Shown piece after piece: positions 14,593-56,885 of a stretch of 58,193 nucleotides of DNA (position 1 is its first letter; every line of letters begins with the position of its first letter). Source of the DNA: an uncultured SAR86 cluster bacterium (GTDB lineage: Bacteria > Pseudomonadota > Gammaproteobacteria > Magnimaribacterales > Magnimaribacteraceae); contig CALJGK010000035.1 in assembly GCA_938075195.1 (NCBI GenBank), positions 1-58,193 on the forward strand. The letters run 5' to 3'. A model generated the notes under the pieces. It saw only the letters and a list, made by a program, of their open reading frames with translations. It was not told where the DNA came from and searched no databases. The translations under genes and the position numbers were made by a program.

Positions 14593-14597
14593 CCTTT

Positions 14598-15680: not shown

Positions 15681-17015
15681 TTAATTTTTTAGTTTATCGG
15701 CAATAAGGTCCATTCTTGTTGATCTTGAACCTTTCACTAATAATATAGTGTTCTGGTCTAATACTGAAACTAAGTAATCATATATCTCGTCATGATTATC
15801 AAAAATTATTAAAGAATCTGTTTCATCTAAATCAATGGAAGACCATATATCACCCAAGAGAAGGATTTTGTCTGTTTTATCTTTAGCATAATGATAAATT
15901 TCTTTATGAATCTCAGCAGACTGTTCTCCTAATTCTTTCATTTCTCCAAGAACACAAATTTTCTTTCCTTTCTTTTCTTCTAATAAGTCTAGAGCGTTCT
16001 TTAACGAGGCAGGATTAGAATTGTAAGAATCATCTATTAAAATTGAATCAGATTTTAATTTAAACACCGACAACCTTCTTTGAGGAAGATCTACAGCTTT
16101 AAGGTTCTCTTTGATTTGAGATAATCCAATACCACAATGAAAAGCTACTCCAAAAGATAAGGCGGCATTCAGCGTGTTATGAAATCCAATGCCATTTATA
16201 AGCAGCTCTTCTTTTGAGCCATCAAAATATAAATTAAAACTAGTAAGATTATTCTCTAAATCTGACTTTATTCCCGATATCCTAAAATCAGATTCTTTGT
16301 CAAAACCAAATGACAAAACTTCTTTTGCGTTAGTCTTGTGTTTCCAGGATTGATAAAAATTTGAGTCTTTTGGTAAAAAAGCAATTCCATTATTTGTTTG
16401 GAAATCTAAAATATTTCCTTTTTCTAGAGCAATAGAATTTGTATCCATAAGACCTTCTAAATGTCCCATTGATACATTAGTTATAGCAGCAATATCTGGA
16501 TTTACTTGCCTGGTTAATATTTCTATTTCACCCGGTTCGCTAGTTCCCATTTCAATCACAGAATATTGATAATTATTTTGTAAGCTGAGCAAAGAAAAAG
16601 GGACACCTATCTGGTTATTCATGTTCCCCAATGTTCTATGGCAGTTGTCATCTTTATTCAGAAGACTAAAGATGATTTGTTTAGTGCTTGTTTTGCCATT
16701 TGTTCCAGTGATTCCAATCACCTTACCTTTAAATTGATTTCTGTTGTAGGCAGCAACACTCCTCATAAAATTAAAGGTATCATCGACAAGAATTTGCGGC
16801 AAATCTATATGGGTTGATTGACTTACAACAGCTGCTGAAGCACCCTTGTGTTTTGCTTCCGCTAAGAATTCATGGCCATCAAAATTTTTACCTAATAAAG
16901 AAATATATAATTCACCTGGACCGATGGTTCTGGAATCTATACTAAATCCTTCAAAGTTAACAGATTTACCAATGAGCCTACCTTTAGAGATTTGAGCTAG
17001 CTGGTTTAAATCCAT
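15681..17015 (-). CDS. murF: UDP-MurNAc-tripeptide--D-Ala-D-Ala ligase
   Basis: Adds the D-Ala-D-Ala made by Ddl, finishing the cytoplasmic pentapeptide. 444 residues. N-terminal substrate-binding FSIDSRTIGPGELYISL near 24-40, P-loop GTNGKTSTK at 104-112, VIEMGTS near 155, and DDSYNSNPASL near 329. Three bases separate it from murE. One of four Mur ligases in this cluster, all with intact P-loops. Confidence 0.97.
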   Translation of the reverse strand: MDLNQLAQISKGRLIGKSVNFEGFSIDSRTIGPGELYISLLGKNFDGHEFLAEAKHKGASAAVVSQSTHIDLPQILVDDTFNFMRSVAAYNRNQFKGKVIGITGTNGKTSTKQIIFSLLNKDDNCHRTLGNMNNQIGVPFSLLSLQNNYQYSVIEMGTSEPGEIEILTRQVNPDIAAITNVSMGHLEGLMDTNSIALEKGNILDFQTNNGIAFLPKDSNFYQSWKHKTNAKEVLSFGFDKESDFRISGIKSDLENNLTSFNLYFDGSKEELLINGIGFHNTLNAALSFGVAFHCGIGLSQIKENLKAVDLPQRRLSVFKLKSDSILIDDSYNSNPASLKNALDLLEEKKGKKICVLGEMKELGEQSAEIHKEIYHYAKDKTDKILLLGDIWSSIDLDETDSLIIFDNHDEIYDYLVSVLDQNTILLVKGSRSTRMDLIADKLKN

Positions 17016-17018
17016 GAT

Positions 17019-18473
17019 TTATTTCGTTTTCAAGAATTCAGTTACTATATCTTTATCATTAAACTCTAGGAGTTCGTTTCCGATATTTTGATGAGATTCG
17101 TGCCCCTTTCCTGCAATTAATAATACATCTTTATTTGAACTTTTCTTAAATTCAGTAAGAATCTTTTCTATTGCCTCTCTTCTGTCAGGAAATATTAAAA
17201 TATCTTCTGAGGATTCTGTCCCTGAAAGAATATCGCTAATGATCGCTTTTTCATCTTCCCTTCTTGGATTATCATTAGTCAATATAACTACATCGGCATA
17301 TTGTTCAGCCACAGAACCCATTAAGGGTCTTTTTTGTTTATCACGATCCCCACCACATCCAAATAAACACCAAATCAAACCTTCATGATTGCTTCGGATT
17401 TCTTTTAATGCACATTCCAGCGCGTCAGGAGTATGAGCATAGTCAATATAGATTGGGTTCTTTTCATGAAAGATTCTCTCTAATCTGCCCTTGGGTAGTT
17501 GTATGTCTTGAGTGATGCTTGAAATTTCTTTAAGAGTTCTTCCTTCCAAGACAAGAACGGCAATAGAGCAAATAATATTTGAAGCAAGATATTTAGAAAT
17601 TGTACCTAGTTCGAAATTAGTGCTTTCTTCAAAAGCTTTCAGATTTACATTGAGACCTCCATCACTTTTCTCAAATGTGGCATAGAAATCTGCCTCTTTC
17701 TCAATAGAAATACTATAAGTGTTTTGATTGAATTTCTTGAGTTCTTGGTACAGGTTTGCACCAAATTCGCTATCTATACAAATGATGTTGTTGTTTGGTG
17801 ATAAGTCATAAAATAGTTTCTTTTTTGAATTTTGATAGTTTTGTAAACTTCCGTGATAGTCTAAATGATCGTGAGAAAAACTGGTTAAAATAGCATAATC
17901 TATTTCTAGCCCAGCCAACCTATTCTGCTCTAAGCCATGAGAAGACGCTTCCATGGCAATATATGAGACTTTGTTATTTAGAGCATCTCGCAAGAAACTA
18001 TTGATCTGGATTGGATGCTCTGTTGTCAAAACTGATTCTCTAAGCTCATAACCATCAATAGAAGAATTGATCGTGCTCATGAAACCACATTTACTTTGCA
18101 ATAGATTACTCATGCTAGAGAAACTCTCAACAGAGGTTGTTTTTCCATTCGTGCCAGTAACACATACTATTTTCAGTTTAGTGCTTGGAAGACCGAAAAA
18201 TCTTGAAGCAAATAAACCTAAGTATTCCCTTAAATCGGGAAAGTAAATAATATTTTTACTCTTTGCACTGATCTTGTTGTCAGATATGACTAAAGCAGCT
18301 CCTTTTTCTAATGCTGAATCTACAAAATCAATGCCATCTTTCTCCTGCCCTTTAAGCGCAAAAAAAAGACCGCCAGGAGATAAAGATCGACTATCAATAT
18401 GAAGACTCGAAATTTCTACGTCCTGAAAACCCTTTAGATCAGATAGTTCAAATAAAAAATCAGAAGCTTGCAT
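17019..18473 (-). CDS. murE: UDP-MurNAc-L-Ala-D-Glu--meso-diaminopimelate ligase
   Basis: Adds the third stem residue. 484 residues. P-loop TGTNGKTTS at about 106-114, EASSHGLEQNR near 174, and the specificity motif DNPR at 401-404. DNPR indicates meso-diaminopimelate rather than lysine, consistent with a Gram-negative wall. Starts directly after the ftsI stop. Confidence 0.97.
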   Translation of the reverse strand: MQASDFLFELSDLKGFQDVEISSLHIDSRSLSPGGLFFALKGQEKDGIDFVDSALEKGAALVISDNKISAKSKNIIYFPDLREYLGLFASRFFGLPSTKLKIVCVTGTNGKTTSVESFSSMSNLLQSKCGFMSTINSSIDGYELRESVLTTEHPIQINSFLRDALNNKVSYIAMEASSHGLEQNRLAGLEIDYAILTSFSHDHLDYHGSLQNYQNSKKKLFYDLSPNNNIICIDSEFGANLYQELKKFNQNTYSISIEKEADFYATFEKSDGGLNVNLKAFEESTNFELGTISKYLASNIICSIAVLVLEGRTLKEISSITQDIQLPKGRLERIFHEKNPIYIDYAHTPDALECALKEIRSNHEGLIWCLFGCGGDRDKQKRPLMGSVAEQYADVVILTNDNPRREDEKAIISDILSGTESSEDILIFPDRREAIEKILTEFKKSSNKDVLLIAGKGHESHQNIGNELLEFNDKDIVTEFLKTK

Positions 18474-20123
18474 CTATATCTTAAGGTCCCTTAATAAAAA
18501 TATTTGCTCCATAATACTGGAAAATAAAGGGGCGGATACTTTACCGCCAGAGTAATCATCACCAGCAAGTCCATGCAATACAACGACTGCCAAAAATTCT
18601 GGGCTATCATGTGGTACAAAACCTGCAAATGTTGCCGTGTAAGTAGTCTCAGTTTCCATAGTTTCTTTGGCAGTACCAGTTTTACCTGCGACTACCCATT
18701 TTGCTAGTTTAGCTTTAGAGGCAGTTCCTTCTTGTGAGTTAACAGTACTAACAAGCATATCCACTATTTTTTGATTTGTATCTACATTGATAACTCTTTC
18801 ATTTAAAGGTTCAGCAAAAGAATTTTCTTTAAATAAATTTAACTCTACAAAATTTCCTTGATTGGCAAAAACCGAATAGGCCTGTGCAATCTGAAGGGCC
18901 GATAAAGTCATTCCGTAACCATAACAAGAACTCACTTTATCTCTTAAAGTAAATTGAGTTTCGTGAGGTAAAAAGCCTTCTCTTGCTGGCAGCATAATAG
19001 ACGTAGGATATCTACCAATGCCAAATTTTTTATAGTAATTTACTAGATGTTTTATATCCTGATCTTCACATAATTTGATCATTCCAACATTACTTGAATA
19101 AGAGATAATTTCTGAGAGCTTGAGCTGACCATAATCTCGAAAATCACTTGTTTTGTAACCTTCAAACTCAATCCACCCTGGAGAGGTGTTGACTATTAAA
19201 TCTTCATGTATTTTTCCTGATTCTAGAATTGCAGACATGGCCAAAGGTTTGAGAACAGAACCTGGTTCGAAAACGTCTATTGTTGCTCTATTTCTAAGTA
19301 TAGACATATCATGAAAGTTTTTTCTATTAGAGGGATCGAAAGAAGGATGATTTACTAAAGCAAGTATATCGCCCGATTTAGGCTCAATGACAACTACTGA
19401 TCCTGCCTTGGCATTATATTTTTTAATTACCTTATCTAGTTCATGATAAGCAATTGATTGGATATTTATATCGATAGTTAATTGAATATCATTTCCTGAA
19501 ACAGCTTCTATTCTTTTACCTTCAAGTTTACTATTTCTTGAACCTTTAATTCCTTGAAAGCTGCCTTCTTTTCCTAAAAGCTCGTTATGAAATACGAGCT
19601 CTGTACCTTGAATGCCTCTTCTGTCGATATCTGTAAGACCAACAACATGAGAAGTGATATTTTTCTCCGGATAGCTTCTTCTTAAATTCTCTCTAAAATA
19701 AATTCCTGGAATCTTCTGACTCTTAATACTTGTTCTTATTTGATTATTGACATTTCTGCTAATTTCTTTGAATCCAGAAGATTGCTTTTTTAACCCCTCA
19801 AGTAAGATAAGGGGATCTTGATTTAAAGTGCTGGAAAGAAAAATAATATTTTCTTTATCATATGTAAATTGAGAGAAATCTAAACCAACGCTATAACCTT
19901 TTACATCCAACGCAAGAACTTTATTATTTCTATCTAAAATCTTACCTCTAGGTGCTAACAGAGAATAATTAGAATCTAGCCTACTAAAGACCTGATCATC
20001 AAGAAAAATATCCTGATAAACTTGAAGGTAGATCAATCTAGCAATTAGAGAACAAAACCCTAAAAGAATTATCAATTGGATAAATACTATCCTTCCCGAA
20101 GAATAGAGAATCCTAGTAGACAT
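18474..20123 (-). CDS. ftsI: FtsI (PBP3), septal peptidoglycan transpeptidase
   Basis: Class B penicillin-binding protein acting with FtsW. 549 residues, a little shorter than E. coli (588). One N-terminal membrane anchor (about 12-34), a dimerisation domain starting near LAPRGKILDRN (56-66), and the transpeptidase domain with SVLK (Ser289, Lys292), SSN (343-345) and KTG (481-483). The usual neighbours ftsL and murE are both in the cluster, but here ftsQ-ftsA-ftsZ separates ftsL from ftsI; ftsZ lies ten bases upstream. Confidence 0.96.
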   Translation of the reverse strand: MSTRILYSSGRIVFIQLIILLGFCSLIARLIYLQVYQDIFLDDQVFSRLDSNYSLLAPRGKILDRNNKVLALDVKGYSVGLDFSQFTYDKENIIFLSSTLNQDPLILLEGLKKQSSGFKEISRNVNNQIRTSIKSQKIPGIYFRENLRRSYPEKNITSHVVGLTDIDRRGIQGTELVFHNELLGKEGSFQGIKGSRNSKLEGKRIEAVSGNDIQLTIDINIQSIAYHELDKVIKKYNAKAGSVVVIEPKSGDILALVNHPSFDPSNRKNFHDMSILRNRATIDVFEPGSVLKPLAMSAILESGKIHEDLIVNTSPGWIEFEGYKTSDFRDYGQLKLSEIISYSSNVGMIKLCEDQDIKHLVNYYKKFGIGRYPTSIMLPAREGFLPHETQFTLRDKVSSCYGYGMTLSALQIAQAYSVFANQGNFVELNLFKENSFAEPLNERVINVDTNQKIVDMLVSTVNSQEGTASKAKLAKWVVAGKTGTAKETMETETTYTATFAGFVPHDSPEFLAVVVLHGLAGDDYSGGKVSAPLFSSIMEQIFLLRDLKI

Positions 20124-20133
20124 AGTCTCCTAA

Positions 20134-21282
20134 TTAATCTAGTTGAGTTCTTACAAAGGAAGGAATATCGAGATATTCGTCATTATCTGTTTCTTTTTTC
20201 AAAGCCTTTTCTACAAGTGGTGGATTTTCTAGAAGTTGTTTAGCTGCGTCACTCAAAGGTAAAGGTTTCCTTTCATTTACAGAATTTAAGCTGTGGGGTT
20301 TATTTGTAGCTGTCTGTAGAGAAGAATTTAACCCTGTAGCAATAACAGTTACTGTTAAATCATTTGAAGATGATTCATCCAAGACTGTTCCAGTTACTAT
20401 GATCGCTTCTGGAGAAGCAAATTCATTAATACAATCTCCAACTGCTTTTATTTCTCCTAAAGAAAGTTCAGGTCCTGCAGTTATATTCACCAAAACTCCT
20501 TTTGCGTCTTTAAGACTTATATCTTCTAGAAGTTTACTAGCTACAGCTTGTTCAGCTGCTATTCTTGCACGATCAGGTCCGCTTGATGTTCCTGTACCCA
20601 TCATGGCAGTTCCTTTTTCGGACATAACAGTTTTTACATCAGCGAAATCTACGTTTATTAATCCAGGTCTGATTATAATATCCGAAATACCCCGAACAGC
20701 TCCTCCAAGTACATCATTTGCTTGTTTGAATGCTTCAAGCATACTGCAATCCTCTCCTAGAACTTCTAAAAGTTTCTGATTGGGTATTGTTATTAATGAA
20801 TCAACCTCTTCAACTAATTCTTTGATGCCTTCTTGAGCAATCTTCATTCTCTTTGCTCCTTCTAATTCAAAAGGTTTAGTAACAACAGCTACTGTAAGTA
20901 TTCCAAGCTCTTTAGCTACTTGAGCCACGATTGGGGCCGCCCCTGTACCGGTACCCCCACCCATTCCAGCTGTTATAAAAACCATATCTGTGCCTTTGAG
21001 CATATCTCTAAGCTTATCCCTGTCCTCAAGAGCAGCCTCTCTTCCAATCGCAGGGTTTGCTCCTGCTCCTAGTCCATCGGTTATCTCCATCCCTAGAATA
21101 AGTTTAGTGCTCGCATCATTTTTATCTAGAGCTTGTTTATCAGTATTGATGGAAATAAACTCAGCGCCTTCAATGCCACATTCGACCATATGCTGCACAG
21201 CATTTCCGCCACCCCCTCCAACACCTATAACTCTTATTGAAGCATTGCCTTTAACTTCCTCTATAATTTCCCACTCACTCAT
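20134..21282 (-). CDS. ftsZ: FtsZ, tubulin-like division GTPase
   Basis: Forms the cytokinetic ring. 382 residues. GTP-binding GVGGGGGNAV at 20-29, tubulin signature GGGTGTG at 108-114, and the C-terminal peptide DIPSFVRTQL that binds FtsA. A strong Shine-Dalgarno (AGAGAGG, about six bases before the ATG) stands out in a cluster where most starts overlap the previous stop, consistent with the high FtsZ level cells need. Followed by ftsI rather than lpxC, which is the usual neighbour. Confidence 0.98.
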   Translation of the reverse strand: MSEWEIIEEVKGNASIRVIGVGGGGGNAVQHMVECGIEGAEFISINTDKQALDKNDASTKLILGMEITDGLGAGANPAIGREAALEDRDKLRDMLKGTDMVFITAGMGGGTGTGAAPIVAQVAKELGILTVAVVTKPFELEGAKRMKIAQEGIKELVEEVDSLITIPNQKLLEVLGEDCSMLEAFKQANDVLGGAVRGISDIIIRPGLINVDFADVKTVMSEKGTAMMGTGTSSGPDRARIAAEQAVASKLLEDISLKDAKGVLVNITAGPELSLGEIKAVGDCINEFASPEAIIVTGTVLDESSSNDLTVTVIATGLNSSLQTATNKPHSLNSVNERKPLPLSDAAKQLLENPPLVEKALKKETDNDEYLDIPSFVRTQLD

Positions 21283-21307
21283 ATCTAACCTCTCTTTTGA
21301 TTAATTG

Positions 21308-22534
21308 TTAAAGATTTCCGCCAAACCATCTAGAAATCCTATTTAAAATATTCTTGTCTCTGTGTATGTAATTTAAATGATCCTCTTGCATTTGCTTCTT
21401 TCCGTATAGCAAGAGGCCAACCGATGTGGCATAAATTGGGTTATTAATAATCTCAGAAAATCCTTCAACTGAATGAGGCGAGCCCATTCTCACTGGCGAA
21501 TGAAAAATCTCTTCTGCTAATTCTGTAGCCCCTTCAATTTTTGATGCTCCACCAGTCAATACTATGCCTGCAGGAATTAATTCATCAAAGCCACTTAGAC
21601 TTAACTTTTGTTGAGCCATGCTAAATATCTCCACGTATCTTCTTTCTAAAACATCGGCCAATGCTTGTCTTGATAACTCTCTTTCCGGTCTTCCTCCCAT
21701 GCCAGGAACCATCATAATCTCTTCAGGTCTTGTCATTGAACTTACGGCACAACCATATCTTTGTTTAATTGTTTCTGCTTGTGTAGGTGGAGTTCTTAAA
21801 GCTTGAGCGATATCATTTGTTACGTGGTCACCGGCTATTGGAATCACATCGGTAAAACAAATAGATCCGTCGACAAAAACTGCGATGTCTGTAGTTCCTC
21901 CACCTATATCAATTAAACAAACTCCCAGATTCCTCTCGTCTTCAGTTAACACTGAGTAGCTCGACGCAAGTTGCTCTAAAACAAATGCTTCAACATCTAA
22001 ACCAGCTGCACTTATGCATTTATGGATATTTTGAGACGAATTTTCACTGCATGTTACTAAATGTACTTTAGCTTCTAATCTTGAACCTGCCATACCTAGT
22101 GGCTCCTTGATACCGTCTTGTTTATCTATTATGTAATCTCTAGGTAATACATGCAGCAGTCTTTGATCTGCAGGTATTGCCATGGCCTGTGCTGTTTCAA
22201 TCACTCTATCTACATCAGTGAACTTGACTTCACCGTCACGTATTGGAACAACTCCTTCAGAATTAAGACCTCTTATATGACTCCCAGAGATACCAACATA
22301 ACATGATCCTATATGACAACCCGCCATACTTTCTGCTTCTTCAATAGATTTTTTTATAGCTGTAGTTGTTGATTCAATATCAACGACAACTCCATTCTTA
22401 AGACCCTTCGAGGTGTGAGTACCTAGACCAGTTATTTCAATTTGCGACCCTCTTGCTTCTGCAACAATTGCTACTACTTTTGATGTTCCTATATCAACAC
22501 CAACAAGCATTTCGTTCCTGCTTACATTACTCAT
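21308..22534 (-). CDS. ftsA: FtsA, actin-like membrane tether of FtsZ
   Basis: Actin-family ATPase that anchors FtsZ to the membrane. 408 residues. Phosphate-1 loop VGVDIGTSKV near 12, the central IDIGGGTTDIAV near 209, VLTGGASKIEG near 327, and a C-terminal amphipathic helix (NRISRWFGGNL) for membrane binding. ATGA overlap with ftsQ upstream and 25 bases to ftsZ downstream keep the usual ftsQ-ftsA-ftsZ micro-order. Confidence 0.97.
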   Translation of the reverse strand: MSNVSRNEMLVGVDIGTSKVVAIVAEARGSQIEITGLGTHTSKGLKNGVVVDIESTTTAIKKSIEEAESMAGCHIGSCYVGISGSHIRGLNSEGVVPIRDGEVKFTDVDRVIETAQAMAIPADQRLLHVLPRDYIIDKQDGIKEPLGMAGSRLEAKVHLVTCSENSSQNIHKCISAAGLDVEAFVLEQLASSYSVLTEDERNLGVCLIDIGGGTTDIAVFVDGSICFTDVIPIAGDHVTNDIAQALRTPPTQAETIKQRYGCAVSSMTRPEEIMMVPGMGGRPERELSRQALADVLERRYVEIFSMAQQKLSLSGFDELIPAGIVLTGGASKIEGATELAEEIFHSPVRMGSPHSVEGFSEIINNPIYATSVGLLLYGKKQMQEDHLNYIHRDKNILNRISRWFGGNL

Positions 22535-23193
22535 ATTGCCTTCTCCATTTTTTCAGTACTTACAGCAATAGCATTCCTATATCTTAGGTCTATATATTTG
22601 CTATAGTCTTTATTTCCTGAGCTCAGCTCGAACAGTATAAATTGCTCGAGACGTTCGAGCTGAACCCGGAAATCCCCTTTATTGAATAAATAATTTGTTC
22701 CGTAATTATCTTCTGCTTTTATGAAATCAGTTCCTTCGTGACCCAAGTGCTTTAATTGATTTCCCTTAAGATTAAGAACATTTTGCATAAGTCTTGCATA
22801 TTTTAATAATATTTCTACCTGATCATCTGCACCAGAGATTGAAATCAGACTTAGGTTTTTTGCCATATCATCAGGAGATATAATCTTTCCTTCTTGTGTA
22901 AGAAATCTATCATTTTCTAAAATAGCTATAGGCTGATGTTCTTCGATTTCAATCAATGTTTTTTCATTGAAATTTTGAGTTGCCTTGATTATTGACACCC
23001 AAGAATTTGAAAATATTTCATCTTTATTATTTGTTTGAAGATTACGTACGTGATTAAAAATTTTTGGTTCTAAGATAGCCATATTCGAAATGATTTCTTT
23101 TGAAAACTTTATAACGATTTTTTGATCCGCAGAATGATTTTGAACAGAACAAGCCGTCATCATTAACAAAAAAATGATCAGAAAGGACCTCAT
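22531..23193 (-). CDS. ftsQ: FtsQ/DivIB, divergent and with almost no cytoplasmic tail
   Basis: 220 residues. Assigned to FtsQ from context (between ftsL and ftsA, ATGA overlaps on both sides) and from faint family features. These are a hydrophobic N-terminus, a POTRA-like stretch (about 25-80), NSWVSIIKATQNF then LIEIEEHQPIA followed by FLTQEGKIISP (about 63-105), and a C-terminal KYIDLRYRNAIAV (about 200-212). Those match the FtsQ pattern of Trp-Val, xxExxPxA, xxxxxGxxF and YxDLRYxxxxAV. Unusual: only two residues precede the hydrophobic segment, and it ends in MTAC, close to a lipobox, so it may be cleaved or lipidated instead of staying as a plain anchor. E. coli FtsQ is longer (276), with a cytoplasmic tail. 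Confidence 0.82.
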   Translation of the reverse strand: MRSFLIIFLLMMTACSVQNHSADQKIVIKFSKEIISNMAILEPKIFNHVRNLQTNNKDEIFSNSWVSIIKATQNFNEKTLIEIEEHQPIAILENDRFLTQEGKIISPDDMAKNLSLISISGADDQVEILLKYARLMQNVLNLKGNQLKHLGHEGTDFIKAEDNYGTNYLFNKGDFRVQLERLEQFILFELSSGNKDYSKYIDLRYRNAIAVSTEKMEKAI

Positions 23194-23480
23194 CTAACCA
23201 AACTCCTGTCTAAATAAATATTTTTATCAGAATCAGGAATGGTCATTCCTAGACTTTCAGAAGCAAATTTTCTTAAAGATATATGATTCTTAAAATACTT
23301 TACCTCCTCTAAGAGAAGGTTGGATTGAAAAGAAAGATCTTCTTTTTCCAATTTTAAATTTTCTAATACAGAAAATGATTTTCTGTATTCATATGTCTGC
23401 AATATCAATGCATAAGAGCTTATAAAAGAAGTGATTATCAATAGAGATATAAATATGGTTTTGTAATTATCTTGCGTCAT
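23190..23480 (-). CDS. ftsL: FtsL, cell division protein
   Basis: Bitopic divisome protein that pairs with FtsB. 96 residues, compared with about 120 in E. coli. One membrane segment at about 8-26, then a coiled-coil region (about 35-65) and a conserved-looking C-terminal ASESLGMTIPD. ATGA overlaps with rsmH and ftsQ. Sequence conservation in this family is weak; position right after rsmH is the main evidence. Confidence 0.88.
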   Translation of the reverse strand: MTQDNYKTIFISLLIITSFISSYALILQTYEYRKSFSVLENLKLEKEDLSFQSNLLLEEVKYFKNHISLRKFASESLGMTIPDSDKNIYLDRSLVR

Positions 23481-24358
23481 ATCTTTTCTGCCACTCTAAG
23501 GATTGCACTTCTACTTCTTGGGTTTGTAGACATTTCATTTTTGGTAGGTTTTAAATATTTTTCTTTAAAATATTTAAATTTTATATTTGAACCTATCCTG
23601 TCTTTTCCCTGAAAAAATCTCTTAACAATCCTATCTTCCATAGAATGAAAACTTATAACAGCCAATCTGCCTCCACAACATAGAATATAGCTGGCAGCTT
23701 CAAGAGCACATTGCAGCTCATATATCTCTTGATTTATAAACATTCTAATAGCTCTAAATGAATTTGTTGCAGGATGCTTTTTCGATCTTTTATAGACACA
23801 AGAAATAATAAGATCAGATAATTCCTTTGTAGATTCAATAGGTTTTTTTTCTCTTGAATCACAGATTTTAGAAGCTATTTTTCTAGATGCTCTTTCTTCT
23901 CCTAGGGTCCAAAGTACATCTTCAATTTCTTTTTTTGTAGCTGAATTAAGCCATTCAGCTGCTGTTTGACCCTGAGATGTATCTATCCTCATATCTAGGG
24001 GTCCATTAGATTGAAAACTAAATCCTCTCTCGGGATCATCAAGTTGTGTTGAGGAAATACCTAAATCTATTAAAATTCCATCTATCTCTCCGTCTTTAAA
24101 GAGTTTATTTAAATTAGAAAATGAATCATTAATTAAATTAAATCTTTTATCATCTGTAAATTCTGTAGATAGAGTCAAAGTAGCCAACTTATCTTTCTCT
24201 AGTGCAATCAAAGTTCCATCCTGATTTAGTTTTTTAAGAATTTTTAGTGAATGTCCTCCTGCTCCGAAAGTACAATCTATATATTTACCATTTTGCTTAG
24301 AGACAAGATTCTCTAGTACTTCGTCTACCATTACCGCTTCATGAGTGGTATTGATCAA
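23477..24358 (-). CDS. rsmH: 16S rRNA (cytosine-1402-N4)-methyltransferase
   Basis: SAM-dependent enzyme that modifies C1402 in the ribosomal decoding centre (formerly MraW). 293 residues. N-terminal HEAVMVDEVL, SAM-binding DCTFGAGGHS at about 28-37, DLGISSTQLDDPERGFSF near 98, and ISFHSMEDRIVKRFF near 238. ATGA overlaps on both sides place it in a coupled unit with mraZ and ftsL. Confidence 0.97.
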   Translation of the reverse strand: MINTTHEAVMVDEVLENLVSKQNGKYIDCTFGAGGHSLKILKKLNQDGTLIALEKDKLATLTLSTEFTDDKRFNLINDSFSNLNKLFKDGEIDGILIDLGISSTQLDDPERGFSFQSNGPLDMRIDTSQGQTAAEWLNSATKKEIEDVLWTLGEERASRKIASKICDSREKKPIESTKELSDLIISCVYKRSKKHPATNSFRAIRMFINQEIYELQCALEAASYILCCGGRLAVISFHSMEDRIVKRFFQGKDRIGSNIKFKYFKEKYLKPTKNEMSTNPRSRSAILRVAEKI

Positions 24359-24834
24359 AACGGTATCTCCTCCAAGCTCATTGGAAGATCCTCTATTAAA
24401 TCTTCTCCTTTAATTTGGAGTCCAGATTGCTTTTTCTCCCAGTTATCCAGGTTCCACAGTTCAAATTTTGAGCCCATGCCTACAAGAGCGACATTTTCTT
24501 TCAAAGTTAAATCAGCAAATTCTCTTAAAATTTGAGGAATGAGAAGTGTCATTCTCTCACCAACCTCAAAATCGGTTACAGAGGCATTACCTAATATTTT
24601 CCACTGAATAGACCTTACTTTCTGATTAAGGCCTCCAAGTGCCTCAAATTTCTGCGAAATCTCTTTCCATAGCTTACCTGGATAGATTATTAATGCAGGA
24701 TATTGGGGATCTTTTGTAATAATCATTTCTCCCTCACAACTTGCTCTTAGAAGCTCTCTATATCTTGCAGGTATGATAATTCTGCCCTTTAAATCAAGGG
24801 TTAAATTACTAGATCCATATATGCCTATACTCAT
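24355..24834 (-). CDS. mraZ: MraZ, transcriptional regulator of the dcw cluster
   Basis: Ring-forming AbrB-fold DNA-binding protein that represses its own operon. 159 residues with two related halves: the DLKGRIIIPARYRELL motif at about 14-27, and a second copy around FEVGERMTLLIPQILREFA (about 90-108). First gene of the cluster; ATGA overlap with rsmH. The leader carries three AAAGTG boxes at 10-bp spacing, the expected form of a MraZ operator. No clear Shine-Dalgarno precedes the ATG. Confidence 0.97.
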   Translation of the reverse strand: MSIGIYGSSNLTLDLKGRIIIPARYRELLRASCEGEMIITKDPQYPALIIYPGKLWKEISQKFEALGGLNQKVRSIQWKILGNASVTDFEVGERMTLLIPQILREFADLTLKENVALVGMGSKFELWNLDNWEKKQSGLQIKGEDLIEDLPMSLEEIPF

Positions 24835-49148: not shown

Positions 49149-50594
49149 ATGAACGAAAACTTGAACAACTGGGAAGCAGTTATTGGACTAGAAATACATG
49201 TCCAATTATCCACTAAGTCAAAACTATTTTCTGGGGCTAGCACTAATTTCGGTGCCCTTCCAAATACTCAAGCATGCAATATAGATCTTGCAATGCCAGG
49301 CGTTTTACCAGTTCTGAATGAAGAAGTATTAAAGATGGCTATTAAGCTAGGTACAGCTCTTAGTGCCGACATAAACAGTCCAACTAGTTTTGCTAGAAAA
49401 AACTACTTTTATCCTGACTCACCTAAAGGTTATCAGATTAGTCAGATGGATAAACCAATAGTAGAAGGTGGATATTTAGATATAGAAACTGAAAGTGGCA
49501 CTAAAAGAATAGGAGTCACAAGGGCTCATTTAGAAGAAGATGCAGGAAAATCTCTACATGATGATTTTGAGGGACAATCGGGAATAGATCTAAATAGAGC
49601 TGGAACTCCTCTATTAGAAATCGTCTCTGAACCAGAAATAAGCACACCAGCAGAAGCAGTAGCTTATTTAAAATCTATCCATTCTATTATTAGATATCTA
49701 GATATTTCAGATGGGAATATGGCCGAGGGTTCCATGAGATGCGATGCCAATGTATCTGTTAGAAAAAAAGGAGATTTAGAGCTGGGGACAAGAACCGAGA
49801 CTAAAAATGTTAATTCTTTTAGATTTGTTGAAAAAGCTATTCAGTATGAAATAGAGAGGCAAGTACATGAAATAGAATCAGGGAATGTGATTACACAAGA
49901 AACAAGGCTTTACGATTCTCAAAACAATACAACTCGACCAATGAGATCTAAGGAATATGCTAATGATTATAGATATTTCCCTGAACCAGACTTACTTCCT
50001 ATAACACTAGAAAAGGACTTTGTTGAGAGCGTAATAAACGGTATGCCAGAAATGCCGAATGAAAAAAAAGAAAGATTTGTTTCTAAGTTTTCATTAAGCA
50101 ATTATGACGCTGATCTTTTAGCAGCTGATAAGGGTATTGCCAATTACTTTGAAGAAGTAGTTAAGATTTCAGATTCCCCTAAGTTAAGTGCAAACTGGAT
50201 AATGGGAGAACTCTCTGCTCTGCTAAATAATGAAAATTTGAATATAAGAGACTCAAAAGTTTCTTCAGATAAATTAGGTCAATTAATTCTTAGAATAGAA
50301 GACGGAACTATCTCAGGAAAGATAGCGAAAGACATTTTTGAAAAAATGTGGGTAAGCGGAAAAGAAGTGGACATTATTATTAAGGACGAAGACCTAGAGC
50401 AAGTAACTGATGATGATGAAATAGAATCCATGATTGATGAAGTTATTGCAAACAATCCACAGCAACTTGAACAATATAAATCAGGTAAAGATAGACTGTT
50501 TGGATTCTTTGTAGGGCAAGTTATGCAAGCTTCTCAAGGAAAAGCCAACCCAAAACAAGTTAACGAGATTCTTAAATCTAAACTAAAAGAATAA
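49149..50594 (+). CDS. gatB: GatB, aspartyl/glutamyl-tRNA amidotransferase subunit B
   Basis: Kinase/amidotransferase subunit that turns misacylated Asp-tRNAAsn or Glu-tRNAGln into the amide form. 481 residues from ATG 49149 ([20 protein letters not shown]); an upstream frame extension to 49056 lies inside gatA and is rejected. [17 protein letters not shown] near 13-29, [10 protein letters not shown] near 122, and DFNRAGTPL-like [16 protein letters not shown] near 146-161. The C-terminal YqeY-like tRNA-binding domain is present (about 330-481). The last 12 bases overlap the convergent TetR-like gene. Confidence 0.98.
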
Positions 50595-51167
50595 CCTGTC
50601 TTGTAAGTGCAGATTTATCATATTATTGAAGTCCTTAAGGACCTCTTCTCTTTCTCTTTTATTTGCTTTTACGCAGTAATCAAGAAGACCATATAGAGAA
50701 AGTAAAACTAAATCTGCTTGCCTGTCTAAGACAGAATCTATCTTACCAGGCCACCCTTTCTTTATTAGTAATCTAATTTTTTGTCGATGACTTTTCTTTG
50801 TACGATCTCTTTCTGCAAGGCACTTAGGTAAGTAAAAAATAGCTGAGTAAACTAAATCACTGTACTCAGGCAATAGATCGACCATTTTTAAAACGGAACT
50901 TTCCAAAAGATCTTTGGCATCATTGGCTGTTTTACAATTTTTTAAACCCTTCTCGAGATGAGCTTCTATTTTTCTGGTTACTCTTTTTTGCTCGTTTAAA
51001 AACATATCTTCCACATCAAGAAAAAAATCTGTTAACTCATTGAGGGGCATTTCCATTTCGTAAGCCAATCGAGTAAAAGATATGGTATGAACTGTTTTAT
51101 CCATCTTCCTGATAGAGTCCATGGACTTTTGGATAATCTTTACTTTCTTTTGAACGTCAACATTCAT
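50583..51167 (-). CDS. TetR-like transcriptional regulator (tandem copy 2)
   Basis: 194 residues. N-terminal helix-turn-helix of TetR type (about 8-55, [19 protein letters not shown]) followed by an all-helical domain that would bind a ligand. It is a clear paralogue of the next gene upstream: the two have the same length, the KKGWPGK and RQ-L motif near 150-165, and a nearly identical C-terminus (NLHLQDR-FF). The recognition helix differs between copies, so they may bind different sites or form a heterodimer. Last gene of the run from prfA; one base separates the two copies. Confidence 0.8.
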
Positions 51168-51168
51168 C

Positions 51169-51753
51169 TTAAAAAAACTTTCTATCCTGAAGGTGTAAAT
51201 TGAGCATGTTTCTAAAGTCGTTAAGAATCTTTAATCTTTCATTTTTAGGAATATGCACTACATGATCGATAAAGCCATAAAATAAAACTGTAACTAGTTC
51301 AGATTGCCTTGTTATTACTTTCTCATCCTTACCAGGCCAACCTCTTTTGATGAGTTTGAAAAACTTTTCTTTAACTTTAATCCTATTTTTATCTCTGAAT
51401 TTAACACAAGCCGGTAAGTAGCAAGATAACTCGAAACGCAAATCAGAGTCTTTACTTAGCGTTTCTACAAATCTTTCAAAAAATATTTCAAAGGCTCTCA
51501 TGAAATCTCCAGGGGTTTTAGCTTTCTTAATTTGTTTATCCCAATACCTATGGAGCGATTCCCAATCTTTCTTCTGAGCTTCAAGAAATATGTCTTCAGT
51601 GGTTGTATAAAATGAAGTGAGTTCATCAATACCCACATCTAGCTCTTTAGCAATGGCTGCAAAGCTTAACAGTTCGATTCTTTTCTTCTTCCTGAGAGAA
51701 TTAATTGCACTATTTACTGCCTTTTCCGTAAGGTTACCGGAATTATTTTTCAT
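51169..51753 (-). CDS. TetR-like transcriptional regulator (tandem copy 1)
   Basis: 194 residues with a TetR-type helix-turn-helix (about 10-58, FAAIAKELDVGIDELTSFY). Paralogous to its downstream neighbour. The cotranscribed acyl-CoA synthetase and hydratase make a fatty acid or acyl-CoA ligand plausible, in the way of FadR/PsrA-type TetR proteins; this is inference. No clear Shine-Dalgarno is seen, unlike the two metabolic genes just upstream, which suggests low expression. Six bases after maoC-like gene. Confidence 0.82.
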   Translation of the reverse strand: MKNNSGNLTEKAVNSAINSLRKKKRIELLSFAAIAKELDVGIDELTSFYTTTEDIFLEAQKKDWESLHRYWDKQIKKAKTPGDFMRAFEIFFERFVETLSKDSDLRFELSCYLPACVKFRDKNRIKVKEKFFKLIKRGWPGKDEKVITRQSELVTVLFYGFIDHVVHIPKNERLKILNDFRNMLNLHLQDRKFF

Positions 51754-51759
51754 AAAAGT

Positions 51760-52215
51760 CTAAGTCATAAACATAGATAGTGTTTCAGCTATGTAAGCTG
51801 GTTTTTCAACACCTTCTATTTCCATTGTGACCTCGGTCTTCATTAGATATCGGCCATCGCCTTTATCATCTACAGAAACGCATTTGCTATGAGTCCTGAC
51901 CTTGGCTCCTACATTGACTGGATTAATAAACCTTACTTTATCAAGTCCATAATTAAAAACCATTTTTAAATTCTCAGGAGCTAAAACTGCCTGTGAGGTA
52001 AGATGCGGAAGTAAAGATAAAGATAAAAATCCATGAGCAATCGTTGAGCCGAACAAGGGTGTGGCTTTTTCTGAATCTACATGGATGAACTGATGATCTA
52101 ACGTGGCATCAGCAAATGTATTTATTCTATCCTGATCGACCTCAAACCAATCCGAAGATCCTATTTCTTGTCCTACGTAATCTACTAATTTTTCTGCTGG
52201 GACTAATCCTATCAT
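51760..52215 (-). CDS. MaoC/NodN-type (R)-specific enoyl-CoA hydratase
   Basis: Hot-dog-fold enzyme, 151 residues. The hydratase-2 motif is complete: FADATLDHQFIHVD near 30-43 with the catalytic Asp and His, then FGSTIAHGFLSLSLLP near 54-69. NodN-like proteins of this type hydrate enoyl-CoA or act on related acyl thioesters. A strong AGGAG box precedes the start. Ten bases after the acyl-CoA synthetase gene, so activation and hydration of the same acyl chain is likely. Confidence 0.9.
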   Translation of the reverse strand: MIGLVPAEKLVDYVGQEIGSSDWFEVDQDRINTFADATLDHQFIHVDSEKATPLFGSTIAHGFLSLSLLPHLTSQAVLAPENLKMVFNYGLDKVRFINPVNVGAKVRTHSKCVSVDDKGDGRYLMKTEVTMEIEGVEKPAYIAETLSMFMT

Positions 52216-52225
52216 TTCTTTTCTC

Positions 52226-53848
52226 CTATTTATTAATTAAATAATTCTTATATTCATCTCTTAAATTTGTTTTTAAAAGTTTACCAGTGGCTGTGTGCGG
52301 CAGGTCCTCAACAAATATGACATCATCAGGTAACCACCATTTGGCAACTTTACCATCAAGGAAATTTAAGAGGTCTTCTGCTGAAGGATTTCCATCAGAA
52401 GTTTTCACTACAAGTAGTAATGGCCTTTCATCCCATTTCTCGTGAAGCACGCCTATGACACATGCTTCTGCAACTTCCGGATGACCAACTGCGGCATTCT
52501 CAAGATCAATAGAACTAATCCATTCGCCACCAGACTTGATGACGTCTTTACTTCTATCTACAATCTCCATATAGCCTTCTGGATGGATTTTTGCAACGTC
52601 TCCTGTATCAAACCAGCCATTCTCATCTTTTGCGCTCTCTTCGGCCTTAAAATACCTTTCTACAATTGTTGGACCTTTTACAAGAAGTCTTCCAAAAGCT
52701 ATTCCATCCTTTGGTAATTCATTGCCATCATCATCTGCTATTGTCATATCTACTCCAAAAAAGGCTTTCCCTTGTTTTTGTTGTAGGTCATATCTGTCTT
52801 CTAAATCCATATTATCCATTTCTGCAGTCTTCACAGTTGCTGTTCCTAAAGGGCTCATTTCAGTCATACCCCATCCATGCATGAGAAAAACATTATGTTT
52901 CTCTTCAAACTCTTGAATCATGGCTCTTGGAGCTGCGGCTCCTCCAACCAAAGCTGTATCGACTGAGTCTATAGTTTTATTAGCGCCGCTTAAATACTGA
53001 AGTAGACCAAGCCAAACTGTAGGTACTCCCATCAATAGATCTGGTTTCTCAGATTCAATAAGTTCATGGATCGATTCTCCATCTAACTTCGGACCAGGGA
53101 ATACTAGCTTCGCTCCAAACATAGCAGCTGCATATGGGATTCCCCATGCATTTACGTGAAACATTGGAACTACTGGGAGAATAACTGTAGAGCTAGATAC
53201 TTTAGCAACATTTCCTGAGCTAACTATCCAAGCATGCAGCACTGTTGATCGGTGAGAGTACAAAACTCCCTTTGGATTACCAGTTGTGCCTGAGGTATAA
53301 CATAAACTTGAAGCAGTATTTTCATCGAATTCTGGCCAATCAAAATCTTCGGATTCTTCAGATATTAAATCTTCATAGCAAATAACATTCTTAAGTTTAG
53401 TTTCAGGCATATTATCTTTATCAGTAAGAATGATAAAACCTTTAACATCGCTTAATTCATCTTCTAGTGACTCTACAAGATCTACAAAAGAAAGATCAAT
53501 AAAAAGATACTGATTTTCTGCATGATTGATGATGTAGGTTAGTTGTTCAGGAAAAAGTCTTGGGTTGACTGTATTTACAACACAACCAATTCCAGAAACT
53601 CCAAAATAAAGCTCGAAATGCCTATAACCATTCCAGGCCAACGTCCCTACTGTATCTCCTTTAGTTAAACCGAGTTTAACCAGTGCATTAGCTAACTTCC
53701 TTGATCTTTTAGCAGCCTCAGAAAAAGTATATCTATGAATAGGACCTTCAACTGTTCTAGATACTATCTCAGCATCGCTATGATACTTTTCAGCATGCTC
53801 TATCAAACCTGATATCAATAGCTGGCCACTCATCATGTTTCCTAGCAT
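52226..53848 (-). CDS. AlkK-like fatty acyl-CoA synthetase
   Basis: ANL-superfamily enzyme, 540 residues, activating a medium- or long-chain fatty acid to its CoA ester through an acyl-AMP. P-loop [11 protein letters not shown] near 186-196, [13 protein letters not shown] near 324, [10 protein letters not shown] near 420, and the C-terminal catalytic lysine in [11 protein letters not shown] near 523. The N-terminus [19 protein letters not shown] resembles AlkK of alkane-degrading Pseudomonas. No signal peptide. Strong AGGAG box seven bases before the ATG. Chain length cannot be fixed from sequence. Confidence 0.92.
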
Positions 53849-53857
53849 TTTTTTCTC

Positions 53858-54970
53858 CTACTTTCTTAATATTGTTCTTGTTAAAGGGTCAGAATATCTT
53901 CGCTTCAACCACTCTTCAAGACTAAATTCACTCTGCCCATCATTTATTTTTTTTAACAGAATTAAATCTAAATAAAAATTCCATAAAAATGGAGCCCATT
54001 CAAGTTGCAGTTCACTCTTCCATTCTATGCAAAGCTCATTTTGAGTTGATAACAGCTTATCAATCTTTTTAGCTGTCAGATTTTGATGTTTCTTAAAGGG
54101 ATCTAAAAAATAGGGAAGAATGAATTTGAAATTCTTGGGAATATTGTAAGAATTAATAATCTGTTGATCTGTTTTGGGAGAAACAAACCTTTCTAAGCAG
54201 ATACTATCTGTAATTGGCATTCCTGTGGGGTTTATCCCTATTCCCTCAACTACCTTATCGAGTGAGGCTCTTCCTTTGTATGGCCCAATAAAAAATCTTG
54301 TTGGGCAGTAATCATTTGCGTAAAGATTATCCCAAATGATGATAGGATTTTTAAACAAGCTCTTTAAGTCTTTAAGACTTTTAAGTGAAATAGACTGACT
54401 TACAACCTCATCTCCAGTCCATAAGATGTTTATATTAGGATCTATATTTGCAGCCAATACTTGCAAATACTCATTGTCTTTAATCTCTCCTCGGGCAAAA
54501 CTTTTGCAATAGACTGTCGGACAAATCATCAAAGGATTCTTGTTGATCCCTTTGATAGATGAAACATGTTGAATAATTTTAAGATGAATTTCTGCAAGCT
54601 CTGCATTTCTTGCTTGATCTATATCATCAAAGAGAATTGCAAAATCCTTAAAACCTATTTTTTTAGCCTGAACGATTTTTTTAGTTAAAGAATTTATATA
54701 TTTATTTGAGAATTTTGTAATGTTCATTCCGGGCGATAAAGCAAAAACAGGCGTTACTGAATTCCTTTTGGAATCTTTAATAAAGGACTTTAGAATCTTT
54801 TCTTTCGAAACAGGGTAGGGTTTTTGCCAACTAACCCTATGGAAGGGATCTTCTTTAGGGCCATATAAATAAAAATCCATATTTAATCTACCCATATGAT
54901 TTAAAACCTTGCATCTTTCATGCTCAGAAAAGAATCGACCGTAATAACCCTCTATATAACCTTTTAGCAT
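53858..54970 (-). CDS. GH84 glycosidase resembling eukaryotic O-GlcNAcase, cytosolic
   Basis: About 370 residues from ATG 54970; an in-frame TTG at 54991 would add seven. The enzyme core starts at once (GYIEGYYGRFF) with no signal peptide, lipobox or membrane segment. GH84 residues, numbered from the ATG: catalytic pair Asp115-Asp116 in LFDDID, Tyr154 in CPTVYC, ILWTGDEVVS near 182, Trp213 and Asn215 in WDN, Asp220 in ANDY, GPYKGR near 229, and Asn247. These match, with almost the same spacing, the O-GlcNAc-binding residues of human OGA as I recall them. Expected reaction: retaining hydrolysis of beta-N-acetylglucosamine. Start overlaps prmC; ten bases before the acyl-CoA synthetase. The natural substrate inside a bacterium is unknown. 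Confidence 0.9.
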   Translation of the reverse strand: MLKGYIEGYYGRFFSEHERCKVLNHMGRLNMDFYLYGPKEDPFHRVSWQKPYPVSKEKILKSFIKDSKRNSVTPVFALSPGMNITKFSNKYINSLTKKIVQAKKIGFKDFAILFDDIDQARNAELAEIHLKIIQHVSSIKGINKNPLMICPTVYCKSFARGEIKDNEYLQVLAANIDPNINILWTGDEVVSQSISLKSLKDLKSLFKNPIIIWDNLYANDYCPTRFFIGPYKGRASLDKVVEGIGINPTGMPITDSICLERFVSPKTDQQIINSYNIPKNFKFILPYFLDPFKKHQNLTAKKIDKLLSTQNELCIEWKSELQLEWAPFLWNFYLDLILLKKINDGQSEFSLEEWLKRRYSDPLTRTILRK

Positions 54971-55797
54971 TTCTTTATTTTCCCTGAGCAAACCCTATCA
55001 TCTCCATTTAAATCTTTAAACTTTCTTATATCAGAAAAGTTATATTTTTCTAAAAGCGATTGAACTTGTTGAGATTGATCATAACCATGTTCTAAATAAA
55101 GAGATCCTTTATTGACTAGTCTTTCAGAGCTTTTGCTAATAACTATTTCAATATCATTTAATCCTTTAGATGCAGAGGTAAGAGCACTTATTGGTTCAAA
55201 TTTCAGACCATCAGAATGAACTCGCGGGTCATCAGGATCAATGTATGGAGGATTACAAATAATAATATCAAATGTTTCTGGTGCAAATGCCTCCAACCAA
55301 TCTGAGTGAATAAATGAAACATTTAATGAATTAGATTGCATATTCTTTGACGCAACTTGTAAGGCCTTATAGCTTTTATCAGAGCAATATATTTCCCATC
55401 CGACCCTTTCTTTAGACAAAGAAAGACCTATGGCTCCAGACCCAGTTCCTAAATCTAATACTTTTTTTTCAGAAGCATTAAAATCTTCTAATACTTTCTC
55501 AACTATTATTTCTGTTTCGGGTCTAGGGACTAATACATTTTCATCGACATAAAGATCAAGGCTCCAAAAACCAATCCCCTTTACAAGATAAGCGAGAGGT
55601 TCGCCCTTTTCTCTTCTTTGAACTAGCTCTTTAAGTTCTTTTAATTTTTCTGAACTTAATCTCGGATCATCTCTGTATAAAATATTCTTATCTATACTTA
55701 ATAGATTTAGAATTAGAAGCTCAATATCTAGCTCTGTGCTTAGCTTCGTATTATTTGATATTAATTTGATTTGATTCAATGATGAATATTCATCCAT
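54964..55797 (-). CDS. prmC: PrmC, release factor glutamine methyltransferase
   Basis: Methylates the GGQ glutamine of RF1 and RF2 to speed termination. 277 residues. SAM-binding VLDLGTGSGAIGL near 113-125 and the catalytic NPPY at 182-185 (CNPPYIDPDDP). Start and prfA stop share a base, so enzyme and substrate are coupled. Usually preceded by hemA-prfA; hemA is absent from this end. Confidence 0.96.
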   Translation of the reverse strand: MDEYSSLNQIKLISNNTKLSTELDIELLILNLLSIDKNILYRDDPRLSSEKLKELKELVQRREKGEPLAYLVKGIGFWSLDLYVDENVLVPRPETEIIVEKVLEDFNASEKKVLDLGTGSGAIGLSLSKERVGWEIYCSDKSYKALQVASKNMQSNSLNVSFIHSDWLEAFAPETFDIIICNPPYIDPDDPRVHSDGLKFEPISALTSASKGLNDIEIVISKSSERLVNKGSLYLEHGYDQSQQVQSLLEKYNFSDIRKFKDLNGDDRVCSGKIKKC

Positions 55798-56885
55798 CAG
55801 ACTGAAGATTCTAAATTCGCTAAAGCTCTGGCTTGATTTTCTTCTAGGAGAGTAGAAATCATAACTTCCATATCCCCATCTAAAAAAGCAGGAAGGTTAT
55901 GAACCGAAAATTCTATTCTATGATCTGTAATTCTATTTTGAGGAAAGTTATAGGTCCTTATCTTTTCAGATCTGTCTCCTGAACCAACCATTACTCTCCT
56001 ACTTTCCGCCTGCTCAGACTCAGCTTTTTCTTTTTCTGCATTTTGTAGCTTTGATTGTAGTAATGATAAGGCCTTCTCTTTGTTTTTATGTTGTGACCGT
56101 CCATCCTGACACTCAACTACAAGTCCAGTGGGAATATGTGTTAATCGGACCGCAGAATCAGTCTTATTAACATGCTGCCCTCCAGCACCTGATGCCCTAA
56201 AAGTATCAACTCTCAGATCATTTTTATCTATACTTACTTCTGCAAGATCATCTTGTTCAGCAAGAACGGCTACAGAGCAAGCAGAAGTATGAACTCTTCC
56301 TTGTGACTCTGTGGTCGGAACTCTTTGAACCCGATGAACACCAGCCTCGAACTTCAATTGCATGTAAACATCTGAGCCTTGTATTCTGGTCACTAGTTCC
56401 TTAAATCCCCCGTGGTCCCCTTCTCTTACACTGACAACTTCCATTTTCCAGTTATTTCTTTCTGAGAGTCTGGAATACATTCTAAAAAGATCTCCAGAGA
56501 ACAAAGCAGCTTCATCACCACCTGTACCGGCCCTGATTTCCAAGAAAACATCTTTGGAATCATCAGGATCCTTGGGAAGAAGTAATCGTTTAAGTTCTAT
56601 TTCAAGATCTTCAATAGTCTTTTTTAAGTCATCAAATTCAACCTCGGCCATTTGCTTAATTTCGGGATCAGAATCCTTCATAAGTATTTTTGCTTCTTCA
56701 ATATCCTCTTCCGCTTTTTTGAGGCTAATAAAAGCATTTACCAAAGGAGATAAATCTGAATATTCTTTGGAAAGTTTAATATATTCGACTTGGTTAGAAG
56801 TTATGTCAGGTTGACTTAAAAGTGCTTCGATCTCTTCGTATCTTGAGGAGACTTCACCTAATTTATTTAAAATACTCTCTATCAT
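55797..56885 (-). CDS. prfA: Peptide chain release factor 1
   Basis: Reads UAA and UAG stops and triggers peptide release. 362 residues. The codon-recognition PxT element reads Pro190-Thr-Thr192 (RVPTTESQGR), distinguishing RF1 from RF2, and the catalytic GGQ is at 235-237 (GAGGQHVNKTDSA). First gene of a seven-gene run ending with the TetR-like pair. Divergent from lolB with 21 bases between the start codons. Confidence 0.98.
   Translation of the reverse strand: MIESILNKLGEVSSRYEEIEALLSQPDITSNQVEYIKLSKEYSDLSPLVNAFISLKKAEEDIEEAKILMKDSDPEIKQMAEVEFDDLKKTIEDLEIELKRLLLPKDPDDSKDVFLEIRAGTGGDEAALFSGDLFRMYSRLSERNNWKMEVVSVREGDHGGFKELVTRIQGSDVYMQLKFEAGVHRVQRVPTTESQGRVHTSACSVAVLAEQDDLAEVSIDKNDLRVDTFRASGAGGQHVNKTDSAVRLTHIPTGLVVECQDGRSQHKNKEKALSLLQSKLQNAEKEKAESEQAESRRVMVGSGDRSEKIRTYNFPQNRITDHRIEFSVHNLPAFLDGDMEVMISTLLEENQARALANLESSV

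Follow-up and report, generated by a model that had tools for sequence, protein, structure and literature searches.

The window analysed here, a 58,193-nucleotide stretch of the genome of an uncultured SAR86 cluster bacterium, encodes a glycoside hydrolase of family GH84 within a compact run of minus-strand genes. The host genome assembly is 1.39 Mb long, in 67 contigs, and 82.6% complete. Mucin and glycan degradation and O-GlcNAc signalling are the roles for which GH84 enzymes are known. The features of the locus are the following (hOGA, human OGA).

55797..56885, minus strand: prfA, peptide chain release factor 1 (NCBIfam NF001859, 512.7 bits, cut-off 400)
54964..55797, minus strand: prmC, release-factor glutamine methyltransferase (NCBIfam TIGR03534, 269.8 bits, cut-off 199.1)
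53858..54970, minus strand: GH84 beta-N-acetylglucosaminidase of 370 aa, short bacterial clade; proposed cytosolic muropeptide glucosaminidase
54623..54628, minus strand: catalytic pair D115-D116 (hOGA D174-D175), invariant in 52/52 SAR86 rows and 38/39 other rows of the alignment, the last having a gap
54311..54334, minus strand: W213-D214-N215 ... N219-D220, GlcNAc contacts (hOGA W278, N280, D285)
53990..54022, minus strand: C-terminal clade signature, residues 317-327, WKSELQLEWAP (A1 consensus WKxPLxREWYP)
52226..53848, minus strand: acyl-CoA ligase (PF00501, 248.9 bits; PRK07008, 808.5 bits, slightly below its cut-off of 822; synteny)
51760..52215, minus strand: MaoC-like dehydratase, same strand as GH84 (PF01575, 82.1 bits; synteny)

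The GH84 gene begins with an ATG at 54970 and stops at 53858, exactly the extent given in the initial annotation. Seven bases at its start also belong to prmC, a single base is common to prmC and prfA, and 9 bases separate the GH84 gene from the acyl-CoA ligase gene; PrmC and PrfA are identified by NCBIfam equivalogs matched above their cut-offs. The overlaps bear out the placement of the gene inside a prfA-prmC operon, and the spacing suggests that prfA, prmC, GH84 and the acyl-CoA ligase gene are cotranscribed as one tight operon. After the MaoC gene lie two tandem 194-aa genes (window 50583-51753, minus strand) with weak TetR_C_22 matches under the cut-off.

This arrangement is characteristic of SAR86. 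Named relatives with 60-92% identity to the window GH84 include SAR86 cluster records. Of the 30 GH84 loci of the window's family, every one has the acyl-CoA ligase as its downstream neighbour, 28 show PrmC and 24 PrfA; the missing PrmC and PrfA are explained by loci or contigs that end there. Nineteen of the 20 loci fetched from the other SAR86 families lie at the same site between prfA-prmC and ligase-MaoC (the exception, G040, is discussed below), although some have a ThiF-like or other gene in between and one (L099) shows the ligase side only. None of the 41 non-SAR86 GH84 loci has PrmC or PrfA in the flanks examined, so the prfA-prmC setting is found in SAR86 loci only. Within the stretches read, recycling genes do not stand beside the SAR86 GH84 itself. 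The prfA-prmC neighbourhood offers little hint of function; more telling is the setting of the gene in other groups.

Profile and alignment evidence agree on the identity of the protein. It matches Pfam PF07555 (NAGidase) with 219.8 bits (cut-off 25) over residues 4-256 of 370. No other Pfam model scores above its cut-off, and in the Pfam and NCBIfam matches together only the GH84 model does so, no GH3 model being among them. The nearest solved protein is human OGA (phmmer E 1.3e-47), followed by OgOGA of Oceanicola granulosus (PDB 2xsa, E 1.1e-34) and TtOGA of Thermobaculum terrenum (PDB 5diy, E 6.5e-34). For the active site we used ten hOGA residues that we take to be those holding the sugar or acting in catalysis. 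All ten have a counterpart: G8, Y10, K39, D115 and D116 align with hOGA G67, Y69, K98, D174 and D175, and Y154, W213, N215, D220 and N247 with hOGA Y219, W278, N280, D285 and N313. Nine of them are invariant in the 52 SAR86 rows (Y10, the exception, is found in 51/52), and W213, N215 and D220 are also invariant in the 39 other rows. The protein therefore has the adjacent catalytic Asp pair and the GlcNAc contacts of a GH84 member, and both the family assignment and the human OGA-like active site of the initial annotation hold.

Residue 4 marks the beginning of the catalytic core, and upstream of the ATG the frame stays open over just 8 codons, one of them TTG. This leaves no room for an export signal from any start, and the enzyme is accordingly predicted to be cytosolic. 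The initial annotation was right in giving the protein an N-terminal core with no export signal, and its cytosolic location stands as a prediction; less so its suggestion that such a location is unusual, since a bacterial GH84 enzyme, TtOGA, was shown to be intracellular (PMC4683255, partial text).

Phylogenetic analysis places the window GH84 apart from human OGA and OgOGA. Our GH84 tree has 75 rows, comprising SAR86 of all four families, relatives, and fragments of hOGA and OgOGA; these two are its only reference OGAs, TtOGA having been left out. One clade, supported at 100/97, unites human OGA and OgOGA with four Verrucomicrobia proteins. The window GH84 groups instead with proteins of SAR86, SAR116, Granulosicoccus and Fibrobacteres and one Desulfobulbaceae protein, in a short group that is split from the hOGA side by a 92/97 branch, under the program's star level. 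Within these 75 rows and two references, then, it does not group with hOGA or OgOGA. The short clade also carries its own residues. G250 and D255 are present in 85/85 of its rows, where hOGA and the Verrucomicrobia rows show Cys or Thr and Asn, respectively; C222 is present in 82/85, where hOGA, OgOGA and Verrucomicrobia have Asp; and E324 (81/85) and W317 (79/85) are replaced by other letters in Verrucomicrobia. Profile matches to solved OGAs stop at position 263-326 of 355. The C-terminal signature at residues 317-327 is missing from the four Verrucomicrobia rows, and the hOGA and OgOGA fragments used stop before it.

The distribution of GH84 in SAR86 is complementary to that of NagZ, the GH3 glucosaminidase. 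GH84 occurs in 30 of the 35 genomes of the window's family and in 101 of the 203 SAR86-order genomes, spanning all four families and 16 of 22 genera. We searched the same 203 genomes with the NagZ model NF003740 (cut-off 207 bits), a search in which three of 14 control genomes scored above the cut-off and 10 of 14 gave any signal at all. NagZ is above the cut-off in 75 genomes. The genomes thus divide into 101 with GH84 only, 75 with NagZ only, none with both and 27 with neither (one-sided Fisher p 5e-33, with genomes taken as independent). Among the 40 genomes that are at least 90% complete, 26 have GH84, 13 have NagZ, none has both and one has neither, so that exactly one of the two genes is present in 39/40. 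The 27 genomes with neither gene have a mean completeness of 74%, and two of them (G151 and G165) contain NagZ fragments below the cut-off. A third (G009) encodes a 593-aa GH3 protein (L116 25-4925; 158.6 bits to NagZ, PF00933 273.6 bits), which is separated from AnmK by two genes and adjoins a shortened tyrS-like ORF; it is possibly a third replacement or else a contig-end artefact.

AnmK, the next enzyme of the recycling pathway, is retained irrespective of which gene is present. It is found in 179/203 genomes (90/101 with GH84, 67/75 with NagZ and 22/27 with neither), including the window's own (C33:3226-4308, E 3.8e-117). That small genomes keep a cytosolic GlcNAcase suggests peptidoglycan recycling. 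We also considered other GH3 proteins as stand-ins for NagZ inside GH84 genomes and rejected them: in family f1 the open frames of GH3 proteins measure 601-844 aa, no GH84 genome of the SAR86 order scores above the NagZ cut-off, and a 380-aa GH3 frame in G080, ended by the contig end, matches NagZ with merely E 2.2e-9.

The AnmK gene provides a frame for the history of these changes. All 60 loci retrieved around AnmK include a peptidase-like gene, and 59 of them an erpA-like gene (names by eye). This shared locus indicates that AnmK looks vertically inherited, which makes its tree a fair stand-in for descent. On that tree (61 rows, with changes counted on the 50 rows having one of GH84 and NagZ) there are at least seven changes between the two genes. 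Two genera hold both types in different genomes, g15 with 19 NagZ and 2 GH84 and g20 with 14 NagZ and 2 GH84. An unconditioned independent-pair test drew 11 pairs, on average 5.1 with opposite change, 0 with the same change and 5.9 with NagZ unchanged (median p 0.0625); taken alone, this phylogenetically corrected test is weak. A six-of-six pair result, obtained after dropping the genomes with neither gene, is circular, and we rejected it.

The displaced GH84 of G040, in genus g8, illustrates such a change. It lies at L084 5738-6781, away from prfA-prmC, and groups with GH84s of family f3 (98/92); seven of eight genomes in the sister genus g10 have NagZ. The displaced site, the f3 grouping and NagZ in the sister genus together suggest that GH84 was re-acquired here. 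G040 also has two gene clusters, c18 and c22, in common with a NagZ locus. We dropped this initial hint: c18 resembles an enoyl-CoA hydratase when read by eye, and c22 encodes a fatty acid hydroxylase.

In proteobacteria outside SAR86, most GH84 loci place the gene among those of cell wall recycling. A pattern-based, non-exhaustive scan for relatives yielded 45 loci, 41 of them from outside SAR86; 24 of the 41 come from SAR116, Granulosicoccus and other alpha/proteobacteria. In 21 of these 24 proteobacterial loci, GH84 has a gene for AmpG, AnmK, an AmpD-like protein or MurQ at a distance of at most five genes. The other three are L041, with NlpC/P60 only, and L039 and L045, which are truncated by contig ends. 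Over all 41 loci, the genes found within this distance are AmpG (17 loci), NlpC/P60 (14), AnmK (11), AmpD-like (8), MurI (8), PIG-L (6), M19 (5) and MurQ (3). AnmK immediately precedes GH84 in 5 loci and is one gene away in 6, and in L017, L031 and L034 the two genes overlap by 4 bases.

The neighbours were named by profile searches on single sample members and by BLAST of the others to those members. Two AmpG members reach subfamily TIGR00901 (362 and 376 bits, cut-off 350) and fall short of the E. coli-type AmpG models. One MurQ member matches NF003915 (276 bits, cut-off 168), short of two narrower MurQ models. AnmK matches NF007141 with 387 bits in L018 (cut-off 352) and, slightly below, with 342 in L024; the MurI sample member matches TIGR00067 (184 bits, cut-off 147). 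The AmpD-like amidase fits Amidase_2, far under the AmpD equivalog. In the loci from Fibrobacteres, Desulfobulbaceae, Verrucomicrobia and Bacteriovoracaceae, BLAST to the proteobacterial members found recycling genes near GH84 in 0/15 (15 of 17 loci were scored, the ORF in L011 and L015 not having been picked). No lead came from nine neighbour proteins (among them NUDIX, UbiD, RidA-type and protein kinase), of which eight belong to loci of Fibrobacteres, Chitinivibrionales and Desulfobulbaceae. One SAR116-type cluster (L027 3036-10207) brings together NlpC/P60, AmpG, MurQ, AnmK, a PIG-L-type deacetylase, GH84 and an M19 dipeptidase; the deacetylase might act on released GlcNAc.

The genomes behind these loci were also searched for NagZ, and again three of 14 control genomes scored above the cut-off and 10 gave any signal. 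Of the 45 loci we set aside four from SAR86, four from Verrucomicrobia and one at a contig end, leaving 36 genomes; NagZ is above the cut-off in 0/36, with weaker GH3 matches in seven. The three strongest of these matches were read by eye. The GH3 protein of G219 was rejected as NagZ, as by eye it looks like an exported lipoprotein. That of G237 is NagZ-like with no evident signal, yet the GH84 of this genome (L044) lies outside the short group, on the hOGA side of the tree and on a very long branch. The third, a 541-aa GH3 protein in G204 (L007; 121 bits, no evident signal), counts against replacement. In the SAR116 order (the order of G218), GH84 is present in 85/136 genomes and NagZ above the cut-off in 0/136, with two sub-cut-off GH3 hits. 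Because NagZ is absent with or without GH84, this order gives no contrast, though it fits replacement. Two of its genomes merit a separate remark: G332 has a 256-aa GH3 frame (144.7 bits), and in G266 the GH84 (C25:5198-5896) is in four pieces, two with internal stops, and represents either a decaying gene or a poor assembly.

Taken together, the sequence evidence indicates that the window GH84 is very probably a cytosolic retaining exo-beta-N-acetylglucosaminidase of peptidoglycan recycling and a non-homologous replacement for NagZ. The initial annotation had offered recycling of wall sugars as one of several guesses; the exclusion of NagZ, the retention of AnmK and the AmpG, AnmK, MurQ and AmpD-like neighbours in relatives now support it strongly. 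We infer the catalytic activity, the substrate and muropeptide import in SAR86. Published work describes NagZ, with AmpD and LdcA, as dismantling imported GlcNAc-anhydroMurNAc-peptides, with AnmK using the leftover anhydroMurNAc, and AmpG, NagZ, AmpD, LdcA and AnmK as conserved in Gram-negative bacteria (PMC5371407, partial text); recycling in Caulobacter is the subject of PMC13046382 (partial text), and YejBEF-YepA is described as another importer besides AmpG (PMC9790009). In the proposed mechanism, muropeptides (GlcNAc-1,6-anhydroMurNAc with or without peptide) would pass from the wall to the cytosol, through AmpG in relatives and by a presumed import in SAR86. The terminal GlcNAc would then be bound in the OGA-type pocket and removed by GH84. 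By analogy with D119 and D120 of TtOGA, whose catalytic roles serve as the template (PMC4683255, partial text), D115 would hold the 2-acetamido group and D116 would be the acid that protonates the leaving anhydroMurNAc; by the rules of GH84, catalysis would be substrate-assisted via an oxazoline. AnmK would phosphorylate the anhydroMurNAc, which would return to wall synthesis or enter catabolism. GH84 would thus fill the role that GH3 NagZ has in most Gram-negative bacteria. The clade-specific C-terminal segment may be the aglycone site, which is a guess.

The same reading can be extended, with good but lesser confidence, to the short cytosolic GH84 clade of SAR86, SAR116, Granulosicoccus and Fibrobacteres, which is likely to represent a second kind of muropeptide glucosaminidase, not homologous to NagZ and repeatedly exchanged with it.

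The initial annotation had also raised reversal of a protein modification, and the enzyme could be a hydrolase of cytosolic protein O-GlcNAc, as proposed for T. terrenum. Human OGA is after all its best solved relative, the sugar-binding residues are common to both, and intracellular TtOGA cuts an O-GlcNAc peptide (PMC4683255, partial text). A search for GT41 O-GlcNAc transferases that gave hits in two control genomes found none in the window's own genome (82.6% complete) or in any of the 35 genomes of its family. Together with the placement of the window GH84 outside the hOGA/OgOGA clade, this leaves O-GlcNAc reversal unsupported. The protein is moreover shorter, at 370 aa, than the OgOGA (447) and TtOGA (474) chains, the matches to OGA profiles end early, and its relatives adjoin AmpG, AnmK and MurQ; we regard this explanation as highly improbable.

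Cytosolic breakdown of chito-oligosaccharides or other dietary GlcNAc glycans taken up by the cell would suit the exo-beta-GlcNAcase chemistry, and SAR86 are thought to use polysaccharides. A dietary role nevertheless leaves unexplained the exclusion of NagZ, the equal retention of AnmK and the recycling clusters of relatives, and GH84 is retained even in small (partly incomplete) family f4 assemblies of 0.7-1.2 Mb, which makes it very unlikely. The exclusion might finally be a phylogenetic accident, the GlcNAc enzymes differing between lineages by chance and serving unrelated roles; the borderline corrected pair test and the lack of contrast in the SAR116 order both leave room for this. Against it stand the repeated changes on the AnmK tree, the exchange inside g15 and g20, the presence of exactly one gene in nearly all near-complete genomes and the independent gene-cluster evidence from relatives, and we give coincidence hardly any weight. 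The preferred reading therefore remains that of a recycling enzyme in the place of NagZ.

As such an enzyme, the window GH84 resembles NagZ in its proposed reaction, compartment, position in the pathway before AnmK and phylogenetic slot. The two differ in sequence family (GH3 versus GH84, which are unrelated) and in chemistry, NagZ forming a covalent enzyme intermediate where GH84 catalysis is substrate-assisted. PUGNAc inhibits both NagZ and human OGA (PMC3920638, partial text). OgOGA shares the GH84 barrel, the sugar-binding residues as far as the fragment reaches, and an alignment with the window GH84 from the first residue of its chain, but it belongs to the hOGA clade and has a 447-aa chain; its gene adjoins an acetyltransferase gene, and its biological function is stated as unknown (PMC3814719, partial text). 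TtOGA, another intracellular bacterial GH84, has the same catalytic pair, but its 474-aa chain includes a helical-bundle domain, its genome encodes a GT41 and its proposed role is protein O-GlcNAc cycling (PMC4683255, partial text). Human OGA is close in its catalytic domain (E 1.3e-47), with contacts conserved, but has helical-bundle and acetyltransferase-like domains (PMC4683255, partial text), and falls in a separate clade; for the window GH84 no GT41 partner was found in its own genome or in the 35 of its family.

The family and its fold are established; what appears to be new is the assignment to this pathway, together with the exchange with NagZ. Among the matches listed, no open-licence paper treats GH84 with NagZ replacement or SAR86 wall recycling, and the available portions of PMC12694420, PMC4704652, PMC3920638 and PMC6415606 do not state a link between GH84 and NagZ replacement. 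If the wall-recycling role is true, it gives this GH84 branch a native substrate, closes a gap that had gone unmarked in how ocean bacteria recycle their walls, and provides an example of non-homologous replacement happening repeatedly in small genomes. If the reading also holds for the short clade, wall recycling, and not protein deglycosylation, would count among the main native roles of GH84 enzymes in the bacterial cytosol, and compounds that inhibit the O-GlcNAcase active site would be expected to block wall recycling. A 2025 estuary study read night-time GH84 transcripts as protein O-GlcNAc removal (PMC12694420, partial text), an interpretation that does not necessarily apply if wall recyclers account for many marine GH84 genes.

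The window's organism itself appears to make peptidoglycan, judging by wall and division ORFs named by eye. MurA-, MurC- to MurG-, MraY-, FtsI- and FtsZ-like ORFs occur in the same window. The division and wall cluster (window 8740-24834, minus strand), with names from reading alone, has by eye an unusual gene order: mraZ, mraW, an ftsQ-like ORF, ftsA and ftsZ precede ftsI, murE, murF, mraY, murD, ftsW, murG, murC and ddl.
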